Positions 12,656 to 29,114 of a DNA stretch of 29,876 nt are shown here, one piece after another. The notes under the pieces are model-generated. The model saw only the letters and a program-made list of their open reading frames with translations, did no database searches and had not been told where the DNA came from. A program made the position numbers and the translations under genes. Every line of letters starts with the position of its first letter. The first letter of the stretch is position 1. The DNA is from a virus, in IMG/VR virus record IMGVR_UViG_3300020057_000118, positions 1-29,876 of that record; one strand, 5' to 3'.

Positions 12656-12689
12656 TAAAAACCCCTACAAAAAGAAAGTTGTATTCCTA

Positions 12690-13157: not shown

Positions 13158-13181
13158 AAAAATCTCCTATTTGTTAAACAT

Positions 13182-14155: not shown

Positions 14156-14274
14156 AAAATCCTCCAAATAAGTTTAGGTAACAAAATGTTAATGTGTTTT
14201 TTTTGATTATCCGATTTTAAGCGGGTCTTGAATGTGAACTAGATAGGATTCGAGAAGAGTTGTCCTACATTGGT

Positions 14275-14304
14275 ACTATACTCTATGATATGACAGTGAG
14301 TCAA
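14275..14304 (-). promoter_or_regulatory. Sigma70-type promoter for the capsid gene
   Basis: On the minus strand TTGACT (14299-14304) and TATAGT (14275-14280) are separated by 18 bases, in the 190-base gap between scaffold and capsid. The predicted start is near 14268, giving a leader of about 110 bases. The same -10 hexamer and 18-base spacer occur in the early promoter at 20970-20999. Confidence 0.65.
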
Positions 14305-14324
14305 GCCCCTTTTTACGAAGACTT

Positions 14325-14360
14325 GACTTTTTAGACTTTTTAGACTTTTTAGACTTTTTT
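14325..14360. repeat. Four 9-bp tandem repeats at the scaffold gene 3' end
   Basis: The unit (gacttttta on the plus strand) is repeated at 14325, 14334, 14343 and 14352, the last copy slightly altered. Read on the minus strand the unit is in frame with the scaffold gene as AAA-GTC-TAA, so three in-frame TAA stops follow each other at 14349, 14340 and 14331. Confidence 0.95.
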
Positions 14361-15248: not shown

Positions 15249-15531
15249 TGTCTCCTTGGTTTTCTTCCATGTCTTTGTCTATTTTCGCCAAAATGGCATT
15301 GAGTTTTTGATGATCCATTTTTAGTATCTGTATTAATCTAAGCCCTACTGATCGCTTGCCTTCGTTATAGGCCATTGCTTGGGGGCTATCACTATACGAG
15401 CCATGAAAAACACCTGTCTCTTTTAAAAGGTCTTTTAGGATAATTTTGCCATGATCTGTTTTGAATAATTCTTGGTACTGTGCGATTAATTTAACGCTCG
15501 CATTGCGCTTTTTTACATTTTCACTTATCAC
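15226..15531 (-). CDS. Bbp19-like small phage protein
   Basis: This 101-residue protein matches the pattern of the Bbp19-type phage family: YQELFKTDHGKIILKDLL at about 19-36, then a small variable part with DSPQAMAYNEGKRSVGLRLIQIL at about 48-70. In related proteins this reads F-x-T-x-x-G-x-x-VL-x-DL and A-x-x-x-G-x-R-x-V-x-L-x-I. Members sit between portal and scaffold or capsid genes; their role is unknown, probably in head assembly. The start is a GTG with GGGG upstream, and no in-frame ATG serves better. The 3' end overlaps the scaffold start by 23 bases, which suggests coupled translation. Confidence 0.65.
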   Translation of the reverse strand: MISENVKKRNASVKLIAQYQELFKTDHGKIILKDLLKETGVFHGSYSDSPQAMAYNEGKRSVGLRLIQILKMDHQKLNAILAKIDKDMEENQGDNAYDILK

Positions 15532-15556
15532 TCAATTCCCCTATTGATAGGATTGA

Positions 15557-17170
15557 TTAAGCAGTTGCTTTGCTAGATTTCTGGGCAACATCGGCAGCTA
15601 CTTGAGCTTGCTCCATTTGTGCCTGTTGTTTAGCGACTTCCGCTCTTCCTTCTCTTATTTTCTTAGTATCACTTCTTCCATTTAGTAATTTTTGTGGCAA
15701 TCCTGAAATCTCAGAGATATAAAGAAATGTTTCATCTACATTCAGGTTATCTAAGATATCAGGTTTCATTTGGATAAGTCCACCCATTAATCCCAAAACC
15801 CTTGTCACTGTTTCAGCGTTAACTGCTTTCTGTGCCCGAGCAATCATTGAGCTATACTGAACTTGAATATCAATATCTTTTAACTTAGAAGGAATCTTAG
15901 GAGGAAGTAAATTATTCCTAAGCATGATACCAAAAAGCCTATCAACGAGGGGTTTGAGTAGTTCATTATGTAATCTCGATAGAACAGGTGCCATTATCCG
16001 TAGACTTTCATCTGTTCTTTGCAAAACCTCTGTTGCTGTCATTTGAGGATTATTCTGTGCTAGTTGTAGCTGATTTAAGTAGTAATGTTGCTTGATTCTC
16101 TCATGTACTGCTGCGAGTAGCTTCTCCCCTATTTGAGGATTAACTCCAGTATTTATAGGAGAAATACCTTTCGATCCTGGTCTTGTTAAATTAATCGCCC
16201 CAGGTGTGTAGTTGATTATTTGATTAACACCATCATCTTCTCTTTGAAGTGGAGGTCTGACTGATAATTGAGCTGCTTCAATGTTTATTCTCGACATAAC
16301 ATTGGCCATTTTTATGTCCGGCATGGCATCCATTGTCGGTGATCGTCCAAGTTTTTCACCAGGTAACTTCATCCATCGAGGAACCAGTGCTGGAAACTCA
16401 TGATACCCACTTTCTTCTAAAATGTGCCCATCATCCTTCAATATATAGACTGAAGCAAACGCCATATTCTTAGGGCCAGGCAAAGGAGCGCCATCATCAA
16501 AGAGTCTTATATCTTCACGAGGATAAACCATGTGAACAACCGTTAATACCTCAGATAATCTTGATGAATTCAGCGTACTGTCTTTAAACTTAGGAGGTAG
16601 TGACTCTATTCCGAATTTTTTGATAATTTTCCGCAACTCCCATTTAAAGGAGTGTCCAATCGTATCGACTATACCTTCTGGGTTTTCGTCAATTACACAG
16701 TGGTAAATTGGCTGAGTATTTAGCCTCACTTTGTTCTTTTTGTCTTCTTCTATGAAAGCAACGGCAGTTCCGAAACCAGTAAGTCCCACATAGGTCTCAT
16801 GAATCTCTGTTTGAAAATTTGATCCATTGAGAATAGAATGCATTGAGTTAGTTGCCTTCTGTAACCAGTCTCTCACTTCTTCGTCGCTATCTAATTCCTC
16901 TATTCCAGTGGTTAAACCAAAGAAAGGGATCGAAGGATTGGACAACATTGAGTGAAGTCCAGAAGCCAGTAGTTTAAGTGACTGGTAAGCTGTCGTATCG
17001 TAAATTTTAGAGTGATTTTTCTTCTGACCTTGGACTTGAGTGTCGTAAATATCATCATAATTAGCTAAAACATACTGAGATATTTCATGCCAGTTAGTTT
17101 TCCACCAAGAACGCATTTCTGCTTCCAGTGTCGCATATCTTGCTAACAGCGCCCTTGCACTTGGTTTCAT
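15557..17170 (-). CDS. Head-tail connector / portal protein (T7 gp8-type)
   Basis: This 537-residue protein belongs to the T7-type portal family. The N-terminus has WWKTNWHEISQYVLANYDDI, then KIYDTTAYQSLKLLASGLHSML at about 55-76 and PWFGL-like PSIPFFGL. The middle contains GFGTAVAFIEE, VHMVYPRED, and SGYHEFPALVPRWMKLPGEKLGRSP near 255-280. The C-terminal third has QNNPQMTATEVLQRTDE and ends in a Gln/Ala-rich coiled tail. Twelve copies form the channel through which terminase pumps DNA and to which the adaptor binds. T7 gp8 is 536 residues, so the length fits well. Its ATG overlaps the preceding stop as ATGA; the Shine-Dalgarno (AGGA) is distant, so translational coupling is likely. Confidence 0.9.
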   Translation of the reverse strand: MKPSARALLARYATLEAEMRSWWKTNWHEISQYVLANYDDIYDTQVQGQKKNHSKIYDTTAYQSLKLLASGLHSMLSNPSIPFFGLTTGIEELDSDEEVRDWLQKATNSMHSILNGSNFQTEIHETYVGLTGFGTAVAFIEEDKKNKVRLNTQPIYHCVIDENPEGIVDTIGHSFKWELRKIIKKFGIESLPPKFKDSTLNSSRLSEVLTVVHMVYPREDIRLFDDGAPLPGPKNMAFASVYILKDDGHILEESGYHEFPALVPRWMKLPGEKLGRSPTMDAMPDIKMANVMSRINIEAAQLSVRPPLQREDDGVNQIINYTPGAINLTRPGSKGISPINTGVNPQIGEKLLAAVHERIKQHYYLNQLQLAQNNPQMTATEVLQRTDESLRIMAPVLSRLHNELLKPLVDRLFGIMLRNNLLPPKIPSKLKDIDIQVQYSSMIARAQKAVNAETVTRVLGLMGGLIQMKPDILDNLNVDETFLYISEISGLPQKLLNGRSDTKKIREGRAEVAKQQAQMEQAQVAADVAQKSSKATA

Positions 17171-17607
17171 ATACTGTAAAGTCCTGTTCCTGATTGGTTA
17201 TAAAGGGAAGCTCCACCGCCACTCTTGGGAGCAGAGCCTGGTCTACCGCTTAAGGCAGACTTCTTTTTAGCAGAAGCTCCAAAATTAGCCTCAACGAGAG
17301 CTTGATTTTTTTGATATTCAGCCTCAGCTTCGTTGCTTATATACATGAAGTCCTTGTAATTTGATTTTCCACCCGCAGCCGATCTACTGATAGCAAGTTT
17401 AGTCTGCGTAGGGTCTCGTTCCATGTCTCTTTGTTGCTCTAGCGACTGTGTTCCACCTTGAGTCGGCGTTAACGGATTTCTAGGATTTGGATTAGCTGCA
17501 CCTACTTCTTCTGCCATTCTTTTCTTAATAGACTCGGCGTGAAAATTTATTTGACTACGGGGCGTATTCGCAAATCGCCTTTCTTCTTCTGTTACTTTCT
17601 CTGCCAT
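17167..17607 (-). CDS. Small low-complexity protein between terminase and portal
   Basis: This 146-residue protein has no recognised domain. It starts at an ATG with AGGAG upstream and ends in an ATGA overlap with the portal gene. The first half is charged and helical (EKVTEEERRFANTPRSQ), the second is rich in Gly, Ser and Pro (SGRPGSAPKSGGGASLYNQSG) and probably disordered. No cysteine, membrane segment or catalytic motif is visible. Small proteins in this position are common in podophages and often poorly conserved; a role in packaging or portal assembly is possible but not supported by any residue. Confidence 0.6.
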   Translation of the reverse strand: MAEKVTEEERRFANTPRSQINFHAESIKKRMAEEVGAANPNPRNPLTPTQGGTQSLEQQRDMERDPTQTKLAISRSAAGGKSNYKDFMYISNEAEAEYQKNQALVEANFGASAKKKSALSGRPGSAPKSGGGASLYNQSGTGLYSI

Positions 17608-17616
17608 AATAAACTC

Positions 17617-18942
17617 CTAGTCAAAGACATTATAGTCTGCACTGGCCTGTGTAATCAAGCGGTTTCTTCTCATTTGCTCCATTGGTGGCTTTATCGCAAC
17701 AGCTAATGTCCTGAAAGCATCCGCCCCATGTGATGCCCAGTTATGCAGAGGCGTTCTCGAAAAGGTCTGTTTTATAGCATCGTGAACTCTTTGGTAGTTT
17801 CTTAGGCACTTCAACCCTTCCGTTGTGTTTGGCTCATCAAATGTGCAACGAGGGAGCAACATTCGTACGGCATTGATACCATCAAGCACACCCATTTTTT
17901 CCGCAACATGAATCGTCCCCTGTGGAATCCCTAAATTGTAAAGCGTCTGTTCTCTGGTCACGCCTGTCCCAAGCTCTCTAACTCTTATGTCATGAGGCAT
18001 ATAGTGCCTACTGTAGATATACCTCTTTTTATAGAGTAACCCGACGTAGTGATCTAGTCCCTTCCCGTTATCTGAGATGTAATCAATTACCCTGACTTCG
18101 CCCCTGATCTGCTGAATTATCCATATAGTATTTAGATCTGACATACCCAAGTCCCAAGCAGTCTCACACTCAAAACTAGGATCATGAGGATAGACACCAA
18201 CTCTTTTTCCCTCAATGAGCTTCTCAACATCTGACCCATAGTAAGACCCAATCATGGCCGCTGTCTCGTCGCACTCAAACTCAAGAGCGTACTGTTCCGG
18301 CAACATAGACATTCGCTGGATATCTAACTCTTCTTGACTTATGACACCTGACTCTGACGCTTTTATCTTACAAGTGAACCACCCTGCGGTACTCTTGAAC
18401 ATATTTAATTTGATAGTCAGGTCACAATCGCCCCGTGGAGTCCCGAGGATAATCATCCATCCCTTTCTGTCTGCAAGCATCGGCATGAGTTTGTTAAAGA
18501 AGATGGGGTTAATATCCTGATATTCATCTAGAACAACTCCGTCGGCGTATCTTCCGATGGCAGATGTTAACGAGTCAGCTGACTTCAACTGAATAATTAT
18601 GTGGTCGCCTCTATCAGGTCGATCTATCTTCGCTCGCAACTTCTGTTGGTTCCACTCAACTCCTGGAACATCTTTCAGAAACTGCTTCAAGTACGCCCAA
18701 GCGATATCCTCCACTAGTGAATATGTAGGAGCATAGTAAATATAAATTGGATACATTTGATTGCATCGAAGCGCCTGATCTATCATTTCATTGATAGCAA
18801 ACACCGACTTACCAAAGCGTCGATGGCACATTAGGACGTTGAATCTTTTCAGTTTGTTATGCAGTAGCGCTTGGATTGATCTCGGAATATATCCGGTGCT
18901 GACGTTTTTGACTCTACCAATATTCTTTGGAGGAAGGCTCAT
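17617..18942 (-). CDS. terL: Terminase large subunit
   Basis: This 441-residue ATPase-nuclease packages DNA through the portal. The ATPase half has a Walker A variant CHRRFGKS at 39-46, Walker B VVLDE at 136-140 and the coupling motif ILGTPRG at about 165-171. The nuclease half has the RNase H-like acidic residues Asp264 (AWDLG), Asp318 (MPHDIR) and Asp408 in HGADAFR. All expected catalytic positions are present, so the enzyme looks intact. The Shine-Dalgarno is weak (AGAG), so translation may depend on genes upstream. It lies after terS and a small basic protein and before portal, as is usual for the packaging module. Family identification is firm; cos or pac type cannot be read from the sequence. 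Confidence 0.95.
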   Translation of the reverse strand: MSLPPKNIGRVKNVSTGYIPRSIQALLHNKLKRFNVLMCHRRFGKSVFAINEMIDQALRCNQMYPIYIYYAPTYSLVEDIAWAYLKQFLKDVPGVEWNQQKLRAKIDRPDRGDHIIIQLKSADSLTSAIGRYADGVVLDEYQDINPIFFNKLMPMLADRKGWMIILGTPRGDCDLTIKLNMFKSTAGWFTCKIKASESGVISQEELDIQRMSMLPEQYALEFECDETAAMIGSYYGSDVEKLIEGKRVGVYPHDPSFECETAWDLGMSDLNTIWIIQQIRGEVRVIDYISDNGKGLDHYVGLLYKKRYIYSRHYMPHDIRVRELGTGVTREQTLYNLGIPQGTIHVAEKMGVLDGINAVRMLLPRCTFDEPNTTEGLKCLRNYQRVHDAIKQTFSRTPLHNWASHGADAFRTLAVAIKPPMEQMRRNRLITQASADYNVFD

Positions 18943-18963
18943 TCAAACTCTCTATCGCTTGGT

Positions 18964-19293
18964 CTACTTCTTTCTTCTTGACTTTCCACTTATCGCTGTG
19001 AGTATACCCTTGTTCGCTTGGTTAGCGCCCTTAAGCATCTCTGCTGAGTCCGAGAACGGCACACTGACTGGTGCGCTCTTGTACCCACTCACGCTCTTCT
19101 CGGCCGGAGCCTTCTTATCACTAGGTGGAGAACCATATTTATCTAGTTCCTTCTGGTTGTACACGACGCCCTTTTGTCCCTTCTCGTTGGTAGTCTCAAC
19201 CATTCCGGCCCCTGTCTTCACAACGTCCGTACTGTAGGTTCCCTGGCTCTTCGATATTTTCTTAAAGTCAAACTTTGGCTTCTTCTTATCCAT
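18964..19293 (-). CDS. Small basic low-complexity protein between the terminase subunits
   Basis: This 109-residue protein starts at an ATG with GGAAG upstream and overlaps the 3' end of the small terminase gene by 8 bases. It is very rich in Lys, Ser, Gly and Pro, with basic clusters at both ends (MDKKKPKFDFKKISK and SGKSRRKK) and no predicted stable domain. The composition suggests binding to DNA or to an acidic protein. Its place between terS and terL points to packaging. No homologous family was recognised; the reading frame is credible because of the Shine-Dalgarno, the overlap and the tight packing. Confidence 0.6.
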   Translation of the reverse strand: MDKKKPKFDFKKISKSQGTYSTDVVKTGAGMVETTNEKGQKGVVYNQKELDKYGSPPSDKKAPAEKSVSGYKSAPVSVPFSDSAEMLKGANQANKGILTAISGKSRRKK

Positions 19294-19876
19294 TCTGAAC
19301 TTCCTTATAGTCGGTTTCTTTTATTACTACAGTATCACCTGAATCCTCTCCACCGTCAAGCGGTTCCCTCTTTATCCCTGTGTCCACTCGTATGACGACA
19401 CTCCCTCCGCTACCTTCTCCAGCAGAAGCCTTAGTCTTGTACTTCTCTGAGTTGTCCGCTTCCGCTAATCTAAACAGTGTATCAATTAATAGTTTCTTCG
19501 ACGGCACCTCATCCTTACCTAGACCATCTATTGTCTCGGCCGCATCAAGTAACTTGTCATGAAATATATCTGCTCTATCCTTCTCCGCTTCCCTCAGCGC
19601 AATCCTAAACTCTTCCGACGCCGCCTTCCATGCGTACAATACACTAATAGGAGGCATCCCTTCCATCTTAGATATCTTAATCAACGTCAGGCCATGCGAT
19701 CGTACTAAGTTAGTTATCACTGATATCACTCCAGGAGATATGACGTACCTTCCCTGTATCCTACTTACCACCTCATAAGTCGCCACTTGTGACAACACGT
19801 TGCCTGTCGCACATTCAACGATTTCAATTTCCCCAGTTTCGTTAATCCTTTTATAGGTTGCAACTGCTAAATCCAT
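19286..19876 (-). CDS. terS: Terminase small subunit (Sf6-type)
   Basis: This 196-residue protein has the helical block typical of small terminases: LIKISKMEGMPPISVLYAWK followed by SEEFRIALREAEKDRADIFHDKLLDAAE at about 75-125. It matches the pattern MP-x-x-S-x-[VL]-x-x-W-x and then A-x-x-x-R-A/D that binds DNA and oligomerises. The first 60 residues form an unfamiliar N-terminal part and the last 40 are acidic and Gly/Ser-rich. It recognises the packaging site and regulates the large subunit. It is the first gene of the late block, with GGGGA just upstream and a structured leader and promoter before it. The terminase identity is well supported; the N-terminal part is not explained. Confidence 0.8.
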   Translation of the reverse strand: MDLAVATYKRINETGEIEIVECATGNVLSQVATYEVVSRIQGRYVISPGVISVITNLVRSHGLTLIKISKMEGMPPISVLYAWKAASEEFRIALREAEKDRADIFHDKLLDAAETIDGLGKDEVPSKKLLIDTLFRLAEADNSEKYKTKASAGEGSGGSVVIRVDTGIKREPLDGGEDSGDTVVIKETDYKEVQNG

Positions 19877-19897
19877 AATTTCCCCGAAATCTATTTC

Positions 19898-19961
19898 GCC
19901 CAGGAACCAAGATTGAAGGAGTGTTTTATAGCACTCACGATATCAATGCCCAGTTCCCAAG
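19898..19961 (-). promoter_or_regulatory. Structured leader of the late transcript
   Basis: Two 14-base near-copies, 19898-19911 and 19948-19961, match at 11 of 14 positions. Their differing centres are complementary (GGAAC against GTTCC), so the RNA can form an outer stem. Inside is a second stem, 19919-19923 with 19932-19936 (GAGTG/CACTC). The structure would begin at about the first transcribed base from the promoter at 19969-19997. Confidence 0.45.
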
Positions 19962-19968
19962 CTCTGTC

Positions 19969-19997
19969 ATTATAAAATAAACATCAGTCAACTGCAA
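19969..19997 (-). promoter_or_regulatory. Late promoter candidate before terS
   Basis: On the minus strand TATAAT (19969-19974) lies 17 bases from TTGCAG (19992-19997). The -10 is perfect, the -35 is weak (the first TTG matches), so an activator may be needed, as expected for a late promoter. The -35 overlaps one copy of the repeated 8-mer TGCAAGCA (19993-20000). Confidence 0.5.
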
Positions 19998-20066
19998 GCA
20001 CTTACTATTTGAAAATTCTAAATTTTAAAAATTTGGATCTGAATATAATTAATGGGGAATATTAGT

Positions 20067-20095
20067 GCAAGCAGCAAGACAGCAGACAGCAAGCG
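20067..20095. repeat. GCA(A/G)-rich quasi-repeat
   Basis: Four adjoining units of 7-8 bases read GCAAGCA, GCAAGACA, GCAGACA and GCAAGCG. They lie about 70 bases upstream of the late promoter -35. They could be regulator sites or simple slippage. Confidence 0.6.
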
Positions 20096-20162
20096 ACTAA
20101 TTTGGGAATTTTGATTTTGTGGGAGGGGATGGGTTCAAATGAACACAGCTTCAACTTACTTT

Positions 20163-20174
20163 GGGGGTACCCCC
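20163..20174. promoter_or_regulatory. 12-bp perfect palindrome GGGGGTACCCCC
   Basis: A perfect GC palindrome without a loop inside otherwise AT-rich non-coding DNA. It has no space for an RNA hairpin loop, so a dimeric protein site is the simpler reading. No binding protein can be named. Confidence 0.5.
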
Positions 20175-20346
20175 TTCAAACCAAGTTTTTTAGAACATAG
20201 CTACAGTTTCATTTTCGTTACACCTCAATGAAACTTACTAGTATACTGGCCTCAATAGCTTCGTTGAATGTACTTAGACTTAAGGTAGTCACTGTTTGTT
20301 ACTTACTCATCTACACTACACAGTAATAATGGGGGATATTGAGAGC

Positions 20347-20410
20347 AATAGATATAATAGGTAATAGATATAATAGGTAATAGATATAATAGGTAATAGA
20401 TATAATAGAT
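20347..20410. repeat. Four 16-bp iterons containing TATAAT
   Basis: The unit AATAGATATAATAGGT is repeated head to tail at 20347, 20363, 20379 and 20395, the last with one change. Degenerate relatives (CAATAGCTAAT, CAATAGATTC) follow to about 20447. No spacers are present, so it is not CRISPR. The 16-base period and AT content fit replication iterons or a DNA-unwinding element; each unit also contains a -10 hexamer, but no -35 stands at a suitable distance on the plus strand. Confidence 0.9.
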
Positions 20411-20420
20411 AAGATGTCAA
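20393..20420 (-). promoter_or_regulatory. Weak minus-strand promoter candidate at the iterons
   Basis: On the minus strand a perfect TTGACA (20415-20420) is 16 bases from TATTAC (20393-20398), the latter inside the iterons. A transcript would run through the iterons toward terS with a leader of about 500 bases. The -10 is a 4 of 6 match. Confidence 0.3.
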
Positions 20421-20549
20421 TAGCTAATGTAATATACTCAATAGATTCTCGGATTTCTTGTCAATTAGTGAACAAGAGCATTGCTTTTAAGGTTGAAAAT
20501 AGCACGATTTCCGCACAAATTCCTGACGCTGACAGATTCATCAAATAAT

Positions 20550-20559
20550 ACCTGCAGGT
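20550..20559. promoter_or_regulatory. 10-bp palindrome ACCTGCAGGT
   Basis: A perfect palindrome 10 bases before one copy of TGCAAGCA. It may be an operator; the length is short enough to allow chance. Confidence 0.3.
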
Positions 20560-20638
20560 TTTTAGCACTGCAAGCATGAATAAAACTTATTGAGTAGTAT
20601 AAGTTACTGGAATATAACAAAATGGTGAAAGTGTTAGG

Positions 20639-20712
20639 TATACCGAACAATTCCTATAGAAAAAGCCAAGAAGGCTGGCTAAAATAATGAGTAAAATCTA
20701 AAGTTCGGTATA
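20639..20712. repeat. Inverted repeat TATACCGAAC / GTTCGGTATA
   Basis: Perfect 10-base arms at 20639-20648 and 20703-20712 are 54 bases apart. Weaker similarity extends outward on both sides, including GAAAGT (20627-20632) and its complement near 20717-20722. A small hairpin, AGCC-AAGAA-GGCT at 20664-20676, lies between. It could be two operator sites joined by looping, or a folded RNA. Confidence 0.7.
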
Positions 20713-20918
20713 TCAAACTTTCGTTGAAATTCAATTTATTCCTACTGCTACTTTATAAAAAAATATCAACACATTGACACAAAATAGGCTATTATAAAAC
20801 AATAACATAAACTTGACGCATCTCACCCATCGTGACACATGTGTCGGCACAAGCACACTTCGACACGCTTTTAGCCATTTTTCGACTCTATGTACTGTAA
20901 TTTCTCGCTGTCATGATT

Positions 20919-20946
20919 TTGACATAAATAATTAATACCCTAAAAT
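20919..20946 (+). promoter_or_regulatory. Plus-strand promoter candidate, distal early
   Basis: TTGACA (20919-20924) and TAAAAT (20941-20946) are 16 bases apart. The predicted start is near 20953, so the leader to the first early gene would be about 370 bases. Confidence 0.5.
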
Positions 20947-20969
20947 TAACGCATCTCTCGATGGTTTTT

Positions 20970-20999
20970 TTGACACCTACTTAGCTCACTTTTTATAGT
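20970..20999 (+). promoter_or_regulatory. Strong plus-strand early promoter
   Basis: A perfect TTGACA (20970-20975) and TATAGT (20994-20999) are 18 bases apart, the same layout as the capsid promoter. The predicted start near 21006 gives a leader of about 320 bases that contains two hairpins. The -35 is part of a GACAC site, so a regulator could block it. Confidence 0.65.
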
Positions 21000-21078
21000 A
21001 ATAATTATTTAGGTTCAGACTAATATATTAAACTTGTTTATGGTTTTTTGGTTTTTGTGTCGAAGTTTTGGTTTTTTG

Positions 21079-21100
21079 CAAGCATTTTTAAACATGCTTG
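21079..21100 (+). other. Hairpin in the early leader
   Basis: Arms CAAGCAT (21079-21085) and ATGCTTG (21094-21100) with an 8-base AT loop. The left arm contains most of a TGCAAGCA copy. No U-tract follows, so it is not a terminator. Confidence 0.5.
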
Positions 21101-21279
21101 GCACGTGACACATACTTGTAACACACTAACTTTTTCGGGTTATTTTGTAGCTCTTTTTGGGGTTATTTTGTTTTAATTATTACTTTTTAATTGGTAAAGA
21201 TTACATGGTACAAAATAAAAATGATTATAGTAATGATTTTATTTTACTTTATATAAAATAAGCGTATATTGAGAGAATA

Positions 21280-21300
21280 GAAAGCAAGCGGGTTGCTTTC
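21280..21300 (+). other. 5' UTR hairpin before the first early gene
   Basis: Perfect 8-base arms GAAAGCAA (21280-21287) and TTGCTTTC (21293-21300) enclose the loop GCGGG. It stands 24 bases before the ATG and just before the AAGGA site. It could protect the early mRNA from decay or control initiation. Confidence 0.7.
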
Positions 21301-21324
21301 ATCAAACAAAAAGGAAAAATTTTT

Positions 21325-21840
21325 ATGTTAGTTCAAGAGCAATTAATTCTTATCGCTAAAATGAAAGCTATCTTAGAGAGCTTTGGAAGTCAGGAAGTGT
21401 TTAATCGAGAATTAGAGGATTACTCGGATTCATTCATGGAATTAAGAGACATTCAACATGAACTTGGCTACTTTAAAGATCAGTATAGTAGTGATCAAAT
21501 GGATGACATTACAGATGACTATGATTACTTGATGCAAGTTCAGCCTGAATTAGATATCGTGATTGTCGGGATTAAATTCACTGAACAGTCAATGGTTATT
21601 TCAACTAAAAACATTGGTGGTAATGTTTTTGCATTGATATTTTTAGCTATTCCAGACAGTAACTATGAATATGTTAAATCGTGGGACTACGTAGTGACGG
21701 GTCCGAATTGGTGTTCGGGACATTTAAAAGCACTTCATGGTTGTAAAAATGAAGAGATTTTAGAATATTGGGATAATACTGGTATGAATGATGTTCGTGA
21801 TGCTTGGGATGCTCACAATTCTCGAGTAATAGAATACTAA
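21325..21840 (+). CDS. Unknown acidic early protein (first gene of the early operon)
   Basis: This 171-residue protein has no recognised domain. It starts at an ATG with AAGGA about 9 bases upstream, behind a leader hairpin. It is strongly acidic: about 31 Asp/Glu against 12 Lys/Arg, with acidic runs such as DQMDDITDDYDY near residues 57-68. The C-terminal half contains hydrophobic strands (VIVGIKF, VFALIFLAIP) and ends with WDNTGMNDVRDAWDAHN. Being the first early gene and so acidic, it could act on a host nucleic-acid enzyme, as the DNA mimic Ocr of T7 does, but no similarity to Ocr is claimed. A 15-base stretch encoding RDAWD is shared with the gene at 22383-22889. Confidence 0.75.
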   Translation: MLVQEQLILIAKMKAILESFGSQEVFNRELEDYSDSFMELRDIQHELGYFKDQYSSDQMDDITDDYDYLMQVQPELDIVIVGIKFTEQSMVISTKNIGGNVFALIFLAIPDSNYEYVKSWDYVVTGPNWCSGHLKALHGCKNEEILEYWDNTGMNDVRDAWDAHNSRVIEY

Positions 21841-21909
21841 AGATAGATAAATAGGTTACTTAGAACTTGAAGCAAAACACTTTAATTAAAGGATGAGGAG
21901 TAAATAAAA

Positions 21910-22119
21910 ATGAAACCATTAGAAATAATTCAAGGCTACATTTTATGTAGTGAGGGTGACGATTATGGCGATAGTATTTTTGAAAAGTTTGGAAGGGAAG
22001 TACATACTGAATTTATCAAATTAATAAGCCATGATGACTTAATAAGATTCGCAAAGAAGTATCCAATCAACCACATTTACCATCATTGTCTAATGTCTAT
22101 TGAAGAAGAGGGGGTTTAA
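21910..22119 (+). CDS. Small early protein of unknown function
   Basis: This 69-residue protein starts at an ATG with GAGGAG 9-10 bases upstream. It is acidic in the first half (LCSEGDDYGDSIFEKFG), then has a helical stretch (HTEFIKLISHDDLIRFAKKY) and a His-rich end (HIYHHCLMS). No family was recognised. The stop is followed after one base by the next ATG. Confidence 0.65.
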   Translation: MKPLEIIQGYILCSEGDDYGDSIFEKFGREVHTEFIKLISHDDLIRFAKKYPINHIYHHCLMSIEEEGV

Positions 22120-22120
22120 A

Positions 22121-22396
22121 ATGAAAGTATTAACGAAAGATCTAGAAGCAGTCGTAAGTAGAATTAACTTAATTACAGGTTCACCGCAGACATCTTACAC
22201 CAGTGAGAATGGAAAAAGTGTAGCTAACATTGGTAACTATCATTTAAGTTGGGCTTATGGTGGCGTCTGTTTGCAGAGGATGAGTAACTCCAGCGGTGGC
22301 GTAAGTATCCCTATCAGTAGCGGCTACACTACCAAGGAAGATCTTTATAATTTAATGCATGCTTTCATTAATGGGGTAGAAAATGTTAAAAGTTAA
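22121..22396 (+). CDS. Conserved small phage protein (GNYHLSWAYGG type)
   Basis: I start at the ATG at 22121 (91 residues), one base after the preceding stop and with GGGGG just upstream; a start at 22100 would lie inside the previous gene. The protein carries a pattern found in many short phage early proteins: a helical start ending in LITGSPQTSY, then NIGNYHLSWAYGGVCLQRM at about 42-60, then GGVS and a helix TKEDLYNLMHAFINGVE. The role of these proteins is unknown. It overlaps the next gene by 14 bases. Confidence 0.75.
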   Translation: MKVLTKDLEAVVSRINLITGSPQTSYTSENGKSVANIGNYHLSWAYGGVCLQRMSNSSGGVSIPISSGYTTKEDLYNLMHAFINGVENVKS

Positions 22397-22889
22397 ATTA
22401 TTAATAAGAGGTACACCGAAAAGTAAGCGTAAAGAATCTCTTCAAAGTATCGAATTAGGAATCATTGACGATTTAGAATTTGAAAACGCTAGGTCAGAGG
22501 TATGTGACCGTTTTGAAAGAATAGCGCAAAATATAGTTGGTGAAATCTTTTCAAAGCATAAACTATGCTGCGAAATAGGATTCTTTAAGTTTGATGCTTT
22601 CGGAGATATTGAGAGGGTTAGTTTCTTTCCAGATTTTACACAATTAATTTTATTACAAGGGAGACTTAAAATGACAAGTGAACAACTTCAAAAATTACAG
22701 AACTATTTAACTAAAACTCTTATAAGAGAAATACAGGACGCTTCGTGTGATTTCAAGAAGTGTATTAAGCTTCTCAAACAGATAGAAAGCTTAGATATTG
22801 ACAGACGTGATGCTTGGGATACTGAAAAATTTGGCGCATATAATGATATAGCTGATAAAATGTTTACAACGGATGATATACCGTTTTAG
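22383..22889 (+). CDS. Unknown early protein with a possible internal start at 22671
   Basis: This 168-residue protein starts at an ATG with GGGG 6 bases upstream. The first half (KVKLLIRGTPKSKRKESLQ, then IGFFKFDAFGDIERVSFFPDF) has mixed strands and helices. The second half is a helical bundle (SEQLQKLQNYLTKTLIREI, KKCIKLLKQIESL) ending in DDIPF. An in-frame ATG at 22671 (Met97) has AGGGAG 7 bases upstream, so a separate 72-residue product is plausible; alternatively two genes fused. The segment IDRRDAWDTEKFGAYND shares a 15-base identical stretch with the first early gene. No family was recognised. Confidence 0.7.
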   Translation: MLKVKLLIRGTPKSKRKESLQSIELGIIDDLEFENARSEVCDRFERIAQNIVGEIFSKHKLCCEIGFFKFDAFGDIERVSFFPDFTQLILLQGRLKMTSEQLQKLQNYLTKTLIREIQDASCDFKKCIKLLKQIESLDIDRRDAWDTEKFGAYNDIADKMFTTDDIPF

Positions 22890-22899
22890 GAGATAAAAA

Positions 22900-23100
22900 A
22901 TGATCTACATACTACTTATTGACTCATATCATTACGGTATTTCAGTCGAGTTATTTTCAAAAAAAGAAAGCTTACTAAAGGCAGTTCGTGGATATGATAT
23001 AAGTAGTCGAGAATATTCCGAGTTGAGAGAATCGAAAGAAGTTAAGACGGGCGATGCTATTTTTAAAATAATAATCGTACAAAAGGGGAATATAAAATGA
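22900..23100 (+). CDS. Small early protein of unknown function
   Basis: This 66-residue protein starts at an ATG with AGGAG 7 bases upstream, the Shine-Dalgarno overlapping the preceding stop. It has a hydrophobic first strand (IYILLIDSYHYG), a helix with basic and acidic residues, and ends in a strand (AIFKIIIVQKG). The fold looks like a small alpha-beta domain. It ends in an ATGA overlap with the next gene. Confidence 0.6.
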   Translation: MIYILLIDSYHYGISVELFSKKESLLKAVRGYDISSREYSELRESKEVKTGDAIFKIIIVQKGNIK

Positions 23101-23258
23101 AAGCTGGAGACATTTACAAAACATTATCGAGTTGCATAGTTTTAATAACTGACGTAACTGACGATCAGATCAGTTACAGAATATTGAGCGGTGAGACTGT
23201 CACGTCGTCACTAAAAGACAACGAAAAAGGTTATAGATTGATCGGAAGTGTAGAATGA
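23097..23258 (+). CDS. 53-residue early protein
   Basis: The frame starts at an ATG in an ATGA overlap with the preceding stop, with GGGG 7 bases upstream, and ends in another ATGA overlap. The peptide begins MKAGDIYKTLSSCIVLITDV, continues with an ISYRILSGETVTSSLKDN stretch and ends GYRLIGSVE. It looks like a small beta-rich (SH3-like) domain. The double overlap and Shine-Dalgarno make it a credible gene despite its size. Confidence 0.6.
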   Translation: MKAGDIYKTLSSCIVLITDVTDDQISYRILSGETVTSSLKDNEKGYRLIGSVE

Positions 23259-23359
23259 TTGAATTAACTTATGACCTAGTGTGCGGATTTCTAACGGCCA
23301 TTACTTGGATAGGCTTGTATCTATTGTCAGGGATATTGCTGAAGGGAGAATGGGAATGA
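23255..23359 (+). CDS. 34-residue membrane peptide
   Basis: A short frame from the ATG at 23255, with GGAAG 6 bases upstream, ends in an ATGA overlap with the next gene. The peptide is mostly hydrophobic: residues 8-29 (LVCGFLTAITWIGLYLLSGILL) form one membrane-spanning helix, followed by KGEWE. It has no signal cleavage site. Such single-pass phage peptides may alter host membrane function or exclude other phages; its role is unknown. Confidence 0.55.
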   Translation: MIELTYDLVCGFLTAITWIGLYLLSGILLKGEWE

Positions 23360-23622
23360 TTTGTAACCTAAAATTCATCCCAACAAAACGCTTGAATACA
23401 ATTTTAGCCGATCCCTACACTAGAGGCATTGACGGCAAAGACTATGGGCCACTCAAAGAAGAACTTCAGGACATTGTTTGGGGTCGTGCCGAAAAACAAC
23501 TTATGAACTTTCACGCACTGGCTGAAAAGGAACTAAAAGACTATGAGGATTTTCTTGATAGTGAAGGTGTCCCACCAGTGACTAGTGAAATATTTAACGA
23601 GACCTTTTATGCAGTAAATTAA
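23356..23622 (+). CDS. Early protein of unknown function, ATGA-coupled
   Basis: I start at the ATG at 23356 (88 residues), which overlaps the preceding stop (ATGA) and has GGGAG 7 bases upstream. A longer reading from a GTG at 23281 would run through the membrane-peptide gene in another frame and has no comparable support. The protein begins MICNLKFIPTKRLNTIL, has a GIDGKDYGPLKEELQDIVW stretch and a charged helix. No family was recognised. Confidence 0.65.
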   Translation: MICNLKFIPTKRLNTILADPYTRGIDGKDYGPLKEELQDIVWGRAEKQLMNFHALAEKELKDYEDFLDSEGVPPVTSEIFNETFYAVN

Positions 23623-23662
23623 TAAAGATTTAATAATTAATCTTTTAAGCGGGAGAAAAATA

Positions 23663-23929
23663 ATGAATGTTTCAATGTGTGTGCATAATGAACCTTTAAG
23701 AAGTGAGGTTTTTAAGAGCAAAAGTCTTACAGTGACCACGACGGATTCTGGTTATAAATATTTAACAGCAACTATCAGGTTAGAAGAGTTGGTCATAAAT
23801 GTTTTTTCAAAAACAGTGTCGGCAGAGGAATTTGAAGAGTTTGAATCAGAAAAATGGGAAGCTTATGATAATGAAAACACTTATGATCTTAGACCATCAG
23901 AATTAAAAATAATGGCAAGGGGGATATAA
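23663..23929 (+). CDS. Small early protein before recT
   Basis: This 88-residue protein starts at an ATG with GGGAG 8 bases upstream. The first part is beta-rich (SLTVTTTDSGYKYLTATIRL); the second is acidic and helical (SAEEFEEFESEKWEAYDNEN). It ends in a TAATG overlap with the recT start, so the two are likely co-translated. No family was recognised; a function in recombination is suggested only by position. Confidence 0.65.
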   Translation: MNVSMCVHNEPLRSEVFKSKSLTVTTTDSGYKYLTATIRLEELVINVFSKTVSAEEFEEFESEKWEAYDNENTYDLRPSELKIMARGI

Positions 23930-24897
23930 TGAGTAATTTAGTTTTATTAAAAGATCAGGTGCTTGGTTTTAAAAAAGAGTTTGAAGGAATCGCAAATGAC
24001 TTAGACTTTCAAAAAGAGTCAATGTTTGCGTTACAAGTGATCGAAGGCAATGACTTTGCTTTAAATATAGCAAAGAGTAATCCAAAGGCTCTTAAAAATG
24101 CCATTATTAACGTCGCAGCAATTGGATTAACACTTTCACCAGCGGAGAAATTAGCTTATTTAGTACCGAGGAAAGGCGGGATTACTCTCGTTGTTTCCTA
24201 TCAAGGCTTATGCAAGATTGCTACTGACTCGGGATCGGTTGAATGGATTCATTCTGAAATTGTGAGGAAAAATGATCTGTTTGCTTTAAGTAACCAGGGC
24301 AAGCCACCAGAGCATAAATTCAATCCCTTTGACAAAGAAGTTGATCGAGGTGAGGTTATCGGTGCTTATGTTGTTGCCAAAGTAAAAAGTGGTGACTTTC
24401 TAACCACGACAATGAGTATTGAGGAGATCCATTCGATTAGAAACAGAAGTGAGTCATGGAAGTCAAAAAGTGGCCCATCGGGGCCTTGGGTTTCTGATCC
24501 GTTAGAAATGATGAAGAAAACCGTTATCATTAGAGCATCAAAGGCATGGCCAAAGACAAAAAGATTCGCTGAGGTGATTGCACATAATAATGAAGTTGAC
24601 GGGATTGACTTTAAAGCAGAAGTGATTGAGGCGGCCAAGGCAAGTGATCGGTCACTTGTTGAAATAAAAGGAATTTTGGCTGGAATAACAAGTGGTGAGA
24701 AAAGACTACTTGCTCACTTGTCGGATCAATTCAAGGTCAAGATCTTATCAGTTGATGATTTAAATAATATCCAAGCGGTATATGCACTTGGTTTTCTAGA
24801 TAAATATAAGTCAAAGAAACCGGACGTTGTGGTTATTAAGGAAGAGGAAGTTATTGAAGAGAACATTTTATTAACAACAAAAGATATTAAATTTTAA
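23929..24897 (+). CDS. recT: RecT-type single-strand annealing protein
   Basis: This 322-residue protein belongs to the RecT/Bet family. It has the N-terminal helical part ending in LKNAIINVAAIGLTLSP at about 55-71, then EKLAYLVPRKGGITLVVSYQGLCKIA, and further on VIGAYVVAKVKSGDF, MSIEEIHSIRNRS, and the helix MMKKTVIIRASKAWPK at about 198-213. These are the marks of RecT annealases. It coats single-stranded ends and anneals them to complementary DNA, here with the exonuclease encoded next. The start is in a TAATG overlap with GGGGG just upstream. The C-terminal 80 residues are acidic and less conserved. Confidence 0.93.
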   Translation: MSNLVLLKDQVLGFKKEFEGIANDLDFQKESMFALQVIEGNDFALNIAKSNPKALKNAIINVAAIGLTLSPAEKLAYLVPRKGGITLVVSYQGLCKIATDSGSVEWIHSEIVRKNDLFALSNQGKPPEHKFNPFDKEVDRGEVIGAYVVAKVKSGDFLTTTMSIEEIHSIRNRSESWKSKSGPSGPWVSDPLEMMKKTVIIRASKAWPKTKRFAEVIAHNNEVDGIDFKAEVIEAAKASDRSLVEIKGILAGITSGEKRLLAHLSDQFKVKILSVDDLNNIQAVYALGFLDKYKSKKPDVVVIKEEEVIEENILLTTKDIKF

Positions 24898-24908
24898 AAG
24901 GCGGGGCC

Positions 24909-25604
24909 ATGAACTTTCATCAAACACAATTCGAGAAGCTTGAGACGTACAAAGAGAAACTGGGCTTTGATCCATCAACAATAGAACAAGGGTCAAGTGA
25001 CTGGCTAAAAATGAAGTTAGGAGTAATTTCTGCCAGTAATGCTAAATATCTACTAGGGAAAAGAACAGCAGATGGCAGAGCGACTTATATGGCCTCTTTA
25101 ATTGCCCAGGTTTGCACAGGTGTTTCTCCTGAGTTAAGTGCCAAGCCTTTGCAATGGGGGAAAGATAATGAACAGAGCGCACGATCAGCTTATGAGTTTG
25201 AAAAAGATGAAAGCGTTTTAACTCTGCCATTTATCTATGCCCATGATTACAGAGTTGGTTGTTCGCCTGATTTTCTTTCAGTTACTACTAAGTCTGGAGG
25301 GGAGCTAAAGTGTCCTTTCAATTCAGAAAATCATATTAAGTTTTTATGTTTCGATGATGTAAAGAAAGAATACTACGCTCAAGTGCAATTCTCCCTATGG
25401 GTGACTGGTGCGGATTTTTGGGCATTTGGCAGTTATGATCCGAGAATGAAGAAGAATCAGTTAGCGACAACTATTTTTGAACCAGATACGGCAATGTTTG
25501 AGCGGTTTCTTGAAGAAACGAGTTATTTTATCGCTGAAATGGATGAAAAACTAGAACGATTAGAAGTCAAGTTTGGCGACCAATGGGCAATGGTTACGGT
25601 ATGA
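24909..25604 (+). CDS. YqaJ-type (lambda exonuclease-like) recombination nuclease
   Basis: This 231-residue nuclease belongs to the YqaJ/lambda-exonuclease group. The N-terminus has the GSSDWLKMKLGVISASNA block, then WGKDNEQSAR at about 83-92 with Glu88. The PD-(D/E)xK core is Asp121 in GCSPDFLS, Glu132 and Lys134 in GGELKCP, and Gln158-Gln160 in YYAQVQ. It digests the 5' strand of double-stranded ends and supplies 3' tails for the RecT protein. It follows recT by 11 bases with GGCGGGG at the start, and ends in an ATGA overlap with the next gene. All active-site residues are present. Confidence 0.9.
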   Translation: MNFHQTQFEKLETYKEKLGFDPSTIEQGSSDWLKMKLGVISASNAKYLLGKRTADGRATYMASLIAQVCTGVSPELSAKPLQWGKDNEQSARSAYEFEKDESVLTLPFIYAHDYRVGCSPDFLSVTTKSGGELKCPFNSENHIKFLCFDDVKKEYYAQVQFSLWVTGADFWAFGSYDPRMKKNQLATTIFEPDTAMFERFLEETSYFIAEMDEKLERLEVKFGDQWAMVTV

Positions 25605-25849
25605 TATTAGAAAACGGATCAACTTGGGGCTTTCTTAAGATATTAAACTTGGCAGATGCCAGGTTTGTGTCAAAAGGGGCGCATAAGATGTTTGAACATT
25701 ATTATGTTTGTGAATGTACTTGCGGGACAATCGTGAAGAGAGCGAGTCGTTCAATTTATTTAAAAAAAGTGAATAGCTGTATATCATGTTCAATGAAGCA
25801 GACTAAAATTAACCAAGAAAAAATAGGAGTTCACAGTGGAAGTAATTGA
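25601..25849 (+). CDS. Small zinc-ribbon phage protein
   Basis: I start at the ATG at 25601 (82 residues), in an ATGA overlap with the nuclease gene. The longer reading from 25583 has no support. The protein has the layout of a small phage DNA-binding family: G-S-x-W-G-F-L-K-I at the N-terminus, then YYVCECTCGTIV with Cys37, Cys39, Cys41 and NSCISCS with Cys60 and Cys63. In relatives these read C-x-C-x-CG and SCGC and bind zinc. It is probably a nucleic-acid-binding protein of the recombination module; the precise target is unknown. Confidence 0.7.
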   Translation: MILENGSTWGFLKILNLADARFVSKGAHKMFEHYYVCECTCGTIVKRASRSIYLKKVNSCISCSMKQTKINQEKIGVHSGSN

Positions 25850-26177
25850 AAAAAAGAGATACCAGACACTTAAGAATCACATTCACGAAGGGAAGCTAAT
25901 TAGGAAATTAAGACTTGAATTAAATATGAGTCAGGCTAGCTTTTCTGCAAAGTTTTTAGGCGGGAGTGTTGCGCAAGTTATTTCAAACTGTGAGAGGGGC
26001 ATTTGCCCTCTTCCTCTTAAATATTGGTCAGAGATTTCCCTCCTAAGTGAATATCCAATAGGGCCTGAAATAGCATCGGCCAGGGCGTTTGACGTTAGTG
26101 ACCTGGTTCTCGCTTTTCTCGCAAATAATAAGCTAAAAATTACTAGCTTGCCTATTGGTGTTGGAGACCAAACATAA
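25836..26177 (+). CDS. Xre-like HTH regulator
   Basis: This 113-residue protein contains a helix-turn-helix of the lambda repressor/Xre type at about 20-52: LIRKLRLELNMSQASFSAKF, then an AQVISNCERG recognition part. The start is GTG at 25836, with GGAG 6 bases upstream, inside the 3' end of the preceding gene. The rest, from about 60 on, is a small hydrophobic domain. It likely regulates transcription of this phage; the palindromic and repeated sites in the non-coding regions are candidate targets, but no link is shown. Its 3' end overlaps the primase-helicase gene tail-to-tail by 45 bases. Confidence 0.78.
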   Translation: MEVIEKKRYQTLKNHIHEGKLIRKLRLELNMSQASFSAKFLGGSVAQVISNCERGICPLPLKYWSEISLLSEYPIGPEIASARAFDVSDLVLAFLANNKLKITSLPIGVGDQT

Positions 26178-28499
26178 TCCTTGAAAGCAACTAAGAGGGT
26201 TAAGGCTACGATATACTCTGGCCCTAACTTTCTTTATTCCACAACTTCTGGTTTGTGCCATCCTCTCAAATTCCGTCAAGAAAGAAGTTCGCCTAATTGC
26301 AGAGACTCCAGCCTCGTAGCAGTAAGCCCTAAATGACTTATATAGTTCCTCACTTGATTCCATTAAGCCTTCCTCGAATTTCAAATTGTCTTCCATGAAT
26401 CCAAGAATGGGATTATTAGAAAATGTATATTCCTTAATCATGGCATTGGTTTCTTCGGTTTTAGAGAAACTTCCTTGCGTACTTAGTTTCTTATAGCCGT
26501 CTATCATCCAGTTTAAGATACCGGACGCTTCATTCTTTAACTTATTTTTTATGTCTGGATCAAAATTAGCGTCGGTTTCTGCTGTGAAATATCCCTCAAA
26601 TGGTACGATAATTAGACGCTCTAAAAACCCAACAGAAGTGTCATTGGTCATTGGTAAATGATTACAGGCCATGACAAATTTTGTCCGGTTAGTTACCTGG
26701 ATCGAGTCAGAGTAAAGCTTTCTTGTCCTAAACTCTCCCCCAGCGATAAGGTTTTTCATTTTGGCACTTACATTTATAAATTCTTTTTTCCCTACTTCTT
26801 CTGAGAAATTAACTAATTTATTCCTCATCGAGTAAGATGTTTCCGGCATTACTACATCATCCCACGCCAGCGATGAGTAATTCCCGTTCCCTAAGACAAA
26901 CATAATTGTTTCCATGATTGTTGATTTACCGTTACGGCCAACTCCAGTTAGAATTAGTGCCTTATGGTGCTGATATCCATTAGATAGGCAGTAGCCAAAG
27001 AACTCTTTAAGTAGGTCTACGAGGTGCGGGCGACTAAGCATAACTTTGCTTAATGTCTGATCCCATAGTGGGCACTTTGCTTCTGGTATAAATGGAAAAG
27101 GTATAACAGAAGTGAACCCGTGGTGCGAACTATGTGGCGCTAATGTCCACGTTCCAAGCTTAAGAACTCCGTTCTCGAAATTTAAGTATCCATCGGTTGA
27201 TTTATCGAAAAAACTAGCGTCCTGGATTGTGTCGATGCGAACCATGCGAACAAATTCATCCCATTCATGCGGGCGACTTATTGGCTTTACTCGCTCTTTG
27301 CAAAAGAGAGCTATCTCGTCAGATTCAATTGACTCCCAGAATTTCCCTTGGTGGCGATAGAATGTATTGCGATTAATGGAAACTATTTTATTGCTCTTAA
27401 AGAATGTTTTAACCAGTCCTTCAAAGTCTATCTTCCCTGCTTCACCTTTATTGGTTAAAAACCTAAATCCACTCTCAGTAGTAGCAACGAAATCTACGCT
27501 TTTTAACAAAATCGGAGAGGTTATATTTTTGTTATCTCTATGGGGGCAAAGTTTGCAGCCATCATAAGTTTTTTCAATAGTTGAACACTTCATTGGGCCT
27601 GAGCGCTCACTTGCTTGCTCTGCCTTACTCTGTGTTTCATTGAAATTATATCTTGGATCATGCTTTGAGATATCATGGCAGACAGAAAAACCATTAGTTA
27701 AATGAGAAGCGATATTAAGAGCGTTGTACCATTGCCTTTCAGAGATATTGCCAGTAGTAGATGCATATACCATAAAAGGGCACTGGGTAAGAACGGCCTT
27801 TGTGTCGGCCGGTAATTGCTTAAGTTTATTACTCATTTGTAATCTAGTTAGCGCCTCGCCTTCTGGGATTGGTTGCATACCAGCTCTTTCTTGGAGATCA
27901 AAGTCAATAGGGAAAAGAATAGCTTGAATTATTCTTACAACTTTAGTTGCTTTATCTTTCTTTCTATTTTCTGTACCTGGTAATCTAGTCATGTAAGCAG
28001 GAGCAAAAACAGCTGAGTCAACTTCTTTAAATGGCAACTCCAGTCTGCGAAATTCTTTTTCTATAAGGATGCAAAGATGTTTATAATAAGTGCGATTACT
28101 TTCAAAAAATTCAGTATCCAAGATAGGCGCATTTGTCTCAACTAAAACGTGCAGTCCATTACCAGTGGCAATGAAGCCAGTAGTTGCATAATCAACTTGC
28201 AGTACTCTACAAATAGCTTCTGTATACTTATCCATATAAGTGTAATCAATCTCATCAATGTCGAAAGGGATAATGTTTTGCTCTTTAAGCACTCTGCCCT
28301 TAGATTCCTGACATTTAGCGAAAGTAACGAACATATTGTATCGCTCGCCTTCTGGAATAAGTTCTAAGTAATTTTCATGATTAAGAAGAAGCTCGCTTAA
28401 AGATTCTACTCTCCAGTTTTTATCAAAGAACCTGTCTGCTTTTTTTACTCGTTGAGATTTTCTGTCAAAGTATTCTCGAATACCTAAAATTTGATGCAT
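26133..28499 (-). CDS. Primase-SF3 helicase (AEP primase fused to D5-type helicase)
   Basis: This 788-residue replication protein has an N-terminal archaeo-eukaryotic-type primase: the catalytic FDIDEID at 79-85, TGNGLHV at 112-118 and RLPGTENRKK at 172-181. A cysteine cluster (Cys305, Cys315, Cys318, His320) follows, likely zinc-binding. After a linker region comes the helicase: Walker A GVGRNGKST at 519-527, motif B VNFSEE around 563-568, sensor ACNHLPM at about 611-617 and arginine finger in GFLERLI at about 624-630. It unwinds and primes DNA at the fork. The start has GGT upstream and lies next to a divergent promoter region. It is the only replication enzyme in the window, encoded on the strand opposite its neighbours. 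Confidence 0.93.
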   Translation of the reverse strand: MHQILGIREYFDRKSQRVKKADRFFDKNWRVESLSELLLNHENYLELIPEGERYNMFVTFAKCQESKGRVLKEQNIIPFDIDEIDYTYMDKYTEAICRVLQVDYATTGFIATGNGLHVLVETNAPILDTEFFESNRTYYKHLCILIEKEFRRLELPFKEVDSAVFAPAYMTRLPGTENRKKDKATKVVRIIQAILFPIDFDLQERAGMQPIPEGEALTRLQMSNKLKQLPADTKAVLTQCPFMVYASTTGNISERQWYNALNIASHLTNGFSVCHDISKHDPRYNFNETQSKAEQASERSGPMKCSTIEKTYDGCKLCPHRDNKNITSPILLKSVDFVATTESGFRFLTNKGEAGKIDFEGLVKTFFKSNKIVSINRNTFYRHQGKFWESIESDEIALFCKERVKPISRPHEWDEFVRMVRIDTIQDASFFDKSTDGYLNFENGVLKLGTWTLAPHSSHHGFTSVIPFPFIPEAKCPLWDQTLSKVMLSRPHLVDLLKEFFGYCLSNGYQHHKALILTGVGRNGKSTIMETIMFVLGNGNYSSLAWDDVVMPETSYSMRNKLVNFSEEVGKKEFINVSAKMKNLIAGGEFRTRKLYSDSIQVTNRTKFVMACNHLPMTNDTSVGFLERLIIVPFEGYFTAETDANFDPDIKNKLKNEASGILNWMIDGYKKLSTQGSFSKTEETNAMIKEYTFSNNPILGFMEDNLKFEEGLMESSEELYKSFRAYCYEAGVSAIRRTSFLTEFERMAQTRSCGIKKVRARVYRSLNPLSCFQGLCLVSNTNRQASNF

Positions 28500-28522: not shown

Positions 28523-28551
28523 AGGTTAATTTGACTTTTATTTTACGTCAA
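28523..28551 (-). promoter_or_regulatory. Promoter candidate for the primase-helicase
   Basis: On the minus strand TTGACG (28546-28551) lies 17 bases from TAACCT (28523-28528). The -10 is weak. It overlaps the opposite promoter at 28531-28559, so the two cannot be used at once. Confidence 0.35.
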
Positions 28552-28559
28552 GATATAAA
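28531..28559 (+). promoter_or_regulatory. Plus-strand promoter ending in a terminator
   Basis: TTGACT (28531-28536) and TATAAA (28554-28559) are 17 bases apart. The predicted start near 28567 is about 35 bases before the terminator hairpin at 28601-28630, and 130 bases before the HNH-like gene. Confidence 0.6.
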
Positions 28560-28600
28560 TTAACAAGTGTTTGATTTTTTTTGTCCCGCCAAATTAATCG

Positions 28601-28630
28601 AAAAAAGCCTAGAGAAATCTGGGCTTTTTT
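28601..28630. terminator. Bidirectional intrinsic terminator with GAAA loop
   Basis: Thirteen-base arms (28601-28613 and 28618-28630), one G-U pair, enclose a GAAA tetraloop. The outer six pairs are A-T, so there is a U-tract on both strands. It lies in a divergent region, not after a gene. Confidence 0.85.
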
Positions 28631-28641
28631 ATTTCCTTGAC

Positions 28642-28664
28642 TGATTGCAATCAAGGTGCAATCA
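28642..28664. promoter_or_regulatory. Operator-like palindrome plus half-site
   Basis: TGATTGCAATCA (28642-28653) is a perfect 12-bp palindrome. Its half, TGCAATCA, recurs at 28657-28664, 11 bases (one helical turn) further. The wider CCTTGA/TCAAGG arms (28635-28640, 28651-28656) enclose it, and TTGACT (28637-28642) could be a -35. It lies between terminator and the HNH-like gene. Confidence 0.5.
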
Positions 28665-28697
28665 TTAAAAAAGAACAACAACGAACAGGCAGGGGAA

Positions 28698-29114
28698 ATG
28701 AAAATTTGTTTTGATAGAAAAGAATACAAGGTAGGAAAAAAAGAGGTGGAGATATATTATAGCTTGTATCTCGGTGGCTTAACTTCTGGGCAAGTAGTTA
28801 ATAAATTAAAGTTGCAATTTTCCCCAGAGTATCTGTGTTTGCTATTCAAGAGAGAAGGGTTTTTAATGAGAAAAAGATGTAAGCCTTTTATTATTTTCAA
28901 TGATTCAAAGTATTCAAAAGTTTTAGGAAAATGGATAACAACAAAGAGACCATTTACTCAATTAGGTCGTGATGTTTGGGAATTTCATAATGGCAAGATA
29001 GAGAACCGACTAGCTGTATTTTTCAAAGATGGAAACCCAGATAATTATTTAATTGATAATTTATATTTAAAAAAGAATCAACCACACTTACTCAACAGAA
29101 GGGGCAAAGTATGA
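28698..29114 (+). CDS. HNH-like protein with degenerate active site
   Basis: I start at the ATG at 28698 (138 residues), with AGGCAGGGG just upstream; the GTG at 28656 lies in the operator region. Residues about 15-55 look like a helix-turn-helix (YLGGLTSGQVVNKLKLQF). From about 88 to 123 the sequence follows the HNH nuclease layout: LGRDVWEFHNGKI, then AVFFKDGNPDNYLIDNL. In the usual family the positions before RxxWE and before xDGN hold His; here they are Gly and Phe. The nuclease may be inactive or use other residues; some phage relatives also lack the second His. It could bind DNA and regulate. Confidence 0.65.
   Translation: MKICFDRKEYKVGKKEVEIYYSLYLGGLTSGQVVNKLKLQFSPEYLCLLFKREGFLMRKRCKPFIIFNDSKYSKVLGKWITTKRPFTQLGRDVWEFHNGKIENRLAVFFKDGNPDNYLIDNLYLKKNQPHLLNRRGKV

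Follow-up and report, generated by a model that had tools for sequence, protein, structure and literature searches.

A proposed divergent control region and a predicted small RNA between the primase gene and an HNH operon of a putative tailed phage

Introduction

Short RNAs that have their own promoter and intrinsic terminator are known from phages, the OOP RNA of lambda (pO-oop-tO) and the sar RNA of P22 being described examples (PMC5869508, PMC12197685). Each of them is encoded antisense to the gene that it targets. Bacteria commonly have bidirectional promoters, including E. coli, and activation of one direction can repress the other (PMC12825309, PMC10268837). In the class reported by Warman et al. 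the -10 element is shared and the two starts lie 7–25 bp apart (PMC10268837). In attenuators and in lambda-type early terminators, a terminator separates a promoter from a gene that lies downstream on that strand.

The region described here lies between a primase gene and an operon headed by an HNH endonuclease-like gene. Like OOP and sar, the RNA predicted from it is short, has its own promoter and intrinsic terminator, lies near replication or regulatory genes and possibly acts on a phage mRNA. Its predicted start and the end of its Rho-independent terminator are 64 nt apart, within the size of less than about 100 nt that characterizes RNAs of the OOP/sar type. Unlike them, it has no gene lying opposite to it (no likely gene was found on the minus strand at 28567–28630, the primase beginning at 28499), and its possible target, yqaJ, lies 3.7 kb away. 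This excludes membership in the cis-antisense class and is compatible with a trans-acting small RNA.

The layout of the region is real and beyond chance, and it resembles an ordinary gene for a small RNA, or an insulated promoter, more than a switch. The reading proposed here, plausible but held tentatively, is that of a divergent region in which two promoters (P- and P+) stand back to back and a separate small RNA of about 64 nt is insulated from an HNH operon with its own promoter.

Phage record and gene context

The window, i.e. the whole stretch of DNA that was analysed, is the complete virus record IMGVR_UViG_3300020057_000118 (29,876 bases). From its structural and replication genes the record was judged to be a tailed phage, and the nearest matches of its terminase among phage records were Methylophilales phage Venkman and Pelagibacter HTVC-type phages (38–42% identity). 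We know of no transcript maps for this phage group. The structural genes are oriented leftward and occupy positions 1–19,876, followed by a 1.4-kb intergenic region and a rightward operon containing recT and yqaJ (21,325–26,177), the end of which overlaps the end of the primase gene at 26133–26177. Three genes are relevant to the region:

24909..25604, plus strand: YqaJ recombinase gene, possible small-RNA target (Pfam, E 3.8e-22)
26133..28499, minus strand: primase-helicase gene with D5_N and DUF5906 domains (Pfam and PHROGs)
28698..29114, plus strand: HNH_3 endonuclease-like gene, which opens a rightward operon (Pfam, E 2.8e-8)

Predicted overlapping divergent promoters

Promoters were predicted with a sigma-70 weight matrix, applied at all positions and spacings on both strands of the window; the true consensus of the host may differ from this matrix. 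The following elements lie upstream of the primase gene:

28523..28551, minus strand: P-, predicted primase promoter, TTGACG-17-TAACCT (matrix scan, rank 15, region-wise p 0.024)
28531..28559, plus strand: P+, predicted divergent promoter, TTGACT-17-TATAAA (matrix scan, rank 17, region-wise p 0.028)
28531..28551: inverted repeat TTGAC-N11-GTCAA, made up of the two facing -35 hexamers (pattern search)

The region-wise p values (about 0.03) compare the best site on each strand with dinucleotide shuffles of the region. Transcription from P- is predicted to start at about 28516, 17 nt ahead of the primase ATG, with a ribosome site (AGAGG) at 28512–28508; the predicted start of P+ is at about 28567. 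A preliminary description of this DNA had named two candidate promoters on opposite strands, and both were recovered at the same positions. It had also regarded them as mutually exclusive, which follows for the predicted promoters from the 21 bp that are common to both.

When the region was shuffled 1000 times with its dinucleotides kept, no equally strong overlapping divergent pair arose, and three promoter sites of at least 8.7 bits within 199 bp did not arise either (0/1000). In the entire 29,876 bases, P- and P+ form the only overlapping divergent pair of at least 8 bits, and the TTGAC-N11-GTCAA pattern was found twice against an expectation of 0.24. A stricter consensus scan of the window listed neither P- nor P+, because it requires 9/12 matches and a T as the final base of the -10. 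The number of promoter-like sites from that scan is only about that of shuffles (38 versus 33.4), which would agree with promoters that are chance matches in AT-rich intergenic DNA and with the terminator alone being real. Since neither the overlapping pair nor a trio of sites as strong came up in the shuffles of the region, this explanation is considered highly improbable.

As in the pseudo-symmetric bidirectional promoters of Warman et al., one DNA site would be occupied by polymerase in two exclusive orientations. In P- and P+, however, it is the -35 and spacer sequences that are shared and the -10 elements that are separate, and the distance between the predicted starts (28516 and 28567) is about 51 bp instead of 7–25 bp, which places the pair outside that class.

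The intrinsic terminator

Downstream of the P+ start the following element was detected:

28601..28630, plus strand: intrinsic terminator with a GAAA loop and a T6 tail, acting mainly in the plus direction (folding and terminator scans)

Its 13-bp stem folds at -17.1 kcal/mol on the plus strand (z -4.6), a strength that was reached by 0/200 shuffles, and an independent scan ranked it in the top four of the window. On the minus strand, where a C-A mismatch replaces a G-U pair, the fold is weaker (-11.3 kcal/mol, z -2.1), indicating a mainly rightward terminator. The strong GAAA-loop hairpin that had been proposed after the P+ start was thus borne out in its strength, but not as a terminator acting equally in both directions.

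Such a terminator might instead serve to stop rightward read-through that leaves the recT-yqaJ operon and crosses the primase gene in antisense, P+ being incidental. The overlap of the operon and primase ends would agree with this, because it leaves no intergenic terminator at that place. Against this, a terminator-like hairpin is already present directly 3' of the operon, at 26194–26233, and the overlapping promoter pair would be left unexplained, so that a role in read-through appears quite improbable.

The promoter candidate P2 and a possible operator of the HNH operon

A third promoter candidate, not included in the preliminary description, begins 7 bases beyond the terminator:

28637..28665, plus strand: P2, candidate HNH-operon promoter, TTGACT-17-AATCAT with TG before the -10 (consensus and matrix scans)
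28642–28653 and 28657–28664, in the P2 spacer and -10: possible operator, palindrome TGATTGCAATCA and half-site TGCAATCA

Given this candidate beyond the terminator, the HNH operon likely has its own promoter and would not need P+. The half-site covers the -10 of P2 and is in register with the palindrome, at a distance of 11 bp (one helical turn). The spacer and -10 of a promoter are the usual location of repressor sites. The presence of a 12-bp palindrome with a half-site before the HNH-like gene, as described earlier, was confirmed, but the palindrome alone is not significant, as the window contains 15 perfect palindromes of 12 bp. For the same reason, and since no second copy of it was found, TGATTGCAATCA was rejected as a genome-wide operator. 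A small protein encoded at 25836–26177 resembles, by eye, a Cro/CI-type helix-turn-helix protein, with no Pfam match, and is a possible ligand of this palindrome.

From these elements we infer three sigma-70-like (host-type) promoters in a compact divergent control region. Polymerase bound at the shared P-/P+ site and facing left would transcribe the primase mRNA; facing right, it would produce an RNA of about 64 nt whose 3' end is set by the intrinsic terminator. Transcription of the HNH operon would start from P2, just past the terminator, and P2 would probably be under the control of a repressor bound to the palindrome. The terminator would keep the P+ RNA out of the HNH operon.

A possible attenuator

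The terminator between P+ and the HNH gene, all on the same strand, had also suggested an attenuator acting as a switch by which either the primase or the next operon is expressed. Here, the HNH operon would be transcribed mainly from P+, with the terminator overcome by an antitermination factor or with time of infection. P+, the leader, the terminator and the HNH gene are all in line, and a terminator early in a phage operon would fit an antitermination system, for which such a position is typical (lambda N and Q).

Growing transcripts were folded from position 28,567. Until the terminator forms, a weak hairpin at the 5' end (-4.7 kcal/mol) was the sole structure, and it is compatible with the terminator. 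The best alternative structure of the leader without the terminator likewise reached only -4.7 kcal/mol, versus -19.8 kcal/mol with it, and no competing antiterminator was found in the P+ leader by partial-transcript folding. An Rfam search of the stretch returned no family, leader and antitermination RNAs included, at the gathering score or even at E values up to 5. A GTG frame of 25 codons at the 5' end of the transcript was considered as a leader peptide and rejected, having no ribosome site and running through the terminator; a leader peptide, if there is one, would have to be leaderless.

In contrast to known attenuators, therefore, the region has no antiterminator fold, and its HNH gene has a promoter candidate of its own past the terminator. 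Together with the missing Rfam match and ribosome site, these results make the attenuator the less likely of the two ideas put forward for the plus transcript, the other being a small RNA gene, and in itself improbable. The layout can be explained without the switch, and nothing in the data shows P+ feeding the HNH operon.

The predicted small RNA and its possible target

If the predicted P+ and the terminator both work, a plus-strand RNA of about 64–65 bases, as was originally suggested, is the expected product. It has the following parts:

28567..28630, plus strand: predicted RNA of about 64 nt, with a U-rich, weakly folded 5' part followed by the terminator hairpin (folding)
28567..28590, plus strand: 5' segment GUGUUUGAU...GUCCCGCC, containing two blocks complementary to the yqaJ translation start (24900–24927)

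The P+ transcript would most likely be a small RNA in its own right, non-coding and possibly directed at phage mRNAs such as that of yqaJ. No tRNA or known RNA was detected in the stretch.

Pairing was computed between the 34 nt ahead of the terminator stem and 34 translation start regions. The best partner was the yqaJ start (-27.1 kcal/mol), followed by the start of a gene at 9,534 (-25.6 kcal/mol), and when the whole window was scanned on both strands, these two were the best sites besides the RNA's own complement. When accessibility was left aside, the yqaJ duplex strength was reached by 31/2400 shuffled RNAs (family-wise 1.3%), and a second-best target as strong as that observed by none of the 2400. 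With accessibility included as the cost of opening both RNAs, yqaJ was still the best target at -16.3 kcal/mol, twice the next, and 54/913 shuffles reached this value (family-wise 6%). The gene at 9534 was rejected as a target: its site is buried, and the strong raw duplex drops to a net -6.7 kcal/mol. Action of the RNA on its own downstream HNH start was also rejected, the pairing being no better than in shuffles (p 0.54).

The pairing with yqaJ consists of a 9-bp block, AUCAAACAC, that begins exactly at the predicted first base of the RNA, and of a second block of 8 bp over the ribosome site. Elsewhere in the window AUCAAACAC occurs solely as the RNA's own complement, and contiguous 11-base matches to the RNA exist in other parts of the window. 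The best relatives (L033 and L034) do not have the complementary blocks at their yqaJ start. The start region of yqaJ in this phage (24896–24927, AAAAGGCGGGGCCATG) is unusually GC-rich for an AT-rich genome, and the relatives use GAGGAG. The pairing is regarded as a lead and not as a result. That an RNA made by polymerase in the reverse orientation would pair with the ribosome-binding site and first codons of the YqaJ exonuclease gene, so that the choice of orientation connects replication (primase) with recombination (RecT/YqaJ), is doubtful and on balance improbable.

The RNA may also have no function. P+ would then have arisen as a by-product of the primase promoter or would compete with it, and the terminator would only block stray divergent transcription into the HNH operon and its repressible promoter. 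The -35 elements that face each other are in keeping with such an arrangement, as are the terminator, which points in the plus direction and sits right before P2, and the frequency of bidirectional promoters in bacteria, which can become mutually repressive when one direction is activated (PMC12825309, PMC10268837). P+, however, scores equal to P-, and is thus unlike a weak by-product, and the pairing of its RNA with yqaJ is suggestive. A functionless transcript is rated as rather unlikely, and a separate small RNA, insulated from the HNH operon, remains the preferred reading. If this RNA is real, the phage would couple a replication gene and a regulatory RNA in compact form through one polymerase-binding site; if it is not, the region would be an ordinary insulated divergent promoter region.

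Relatives of the region and other repeats in the window

No homologues of the junction were found in phage records, viral contigs or genome contigs. A sister phage contig (L002) is 98.3% identical over 15,350–21,555 and does not extend to it. The only distant relative with both head genes and a primase (G008, L024/L031) has this primase inside a rightward operon, showing that the layout is not common to it. A replication origin at the region was considered and rejected, as there is no iteron array.

In the large intergenic region a 16-bp unit (AATAGATATAATAGGT-type) is repeated in tandem at 20345–20410, and the sister contig lacks 32 bp (two units) of this array. In the same 1.4-kb region, an inverted repeat (GGTATACCGAAC / GTTCGGTATATC, 11/12) surrounds a smaller GC-rich hairpin at 20637–20714. 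A further hairpin, GAAAGCAAGCGGGTTGCTTTC, lies at 21280–21300, immediately upstream of the gene that opens the recT operon, and has no T tail on the plus strand. On the minus strand, a terminator-like hairpin (12661–12718, -18.5 kcal/mol) is located 3' of the gene at 12711–13157 and overlaps a promoter-like site, TTGATT-17-TATAAT.
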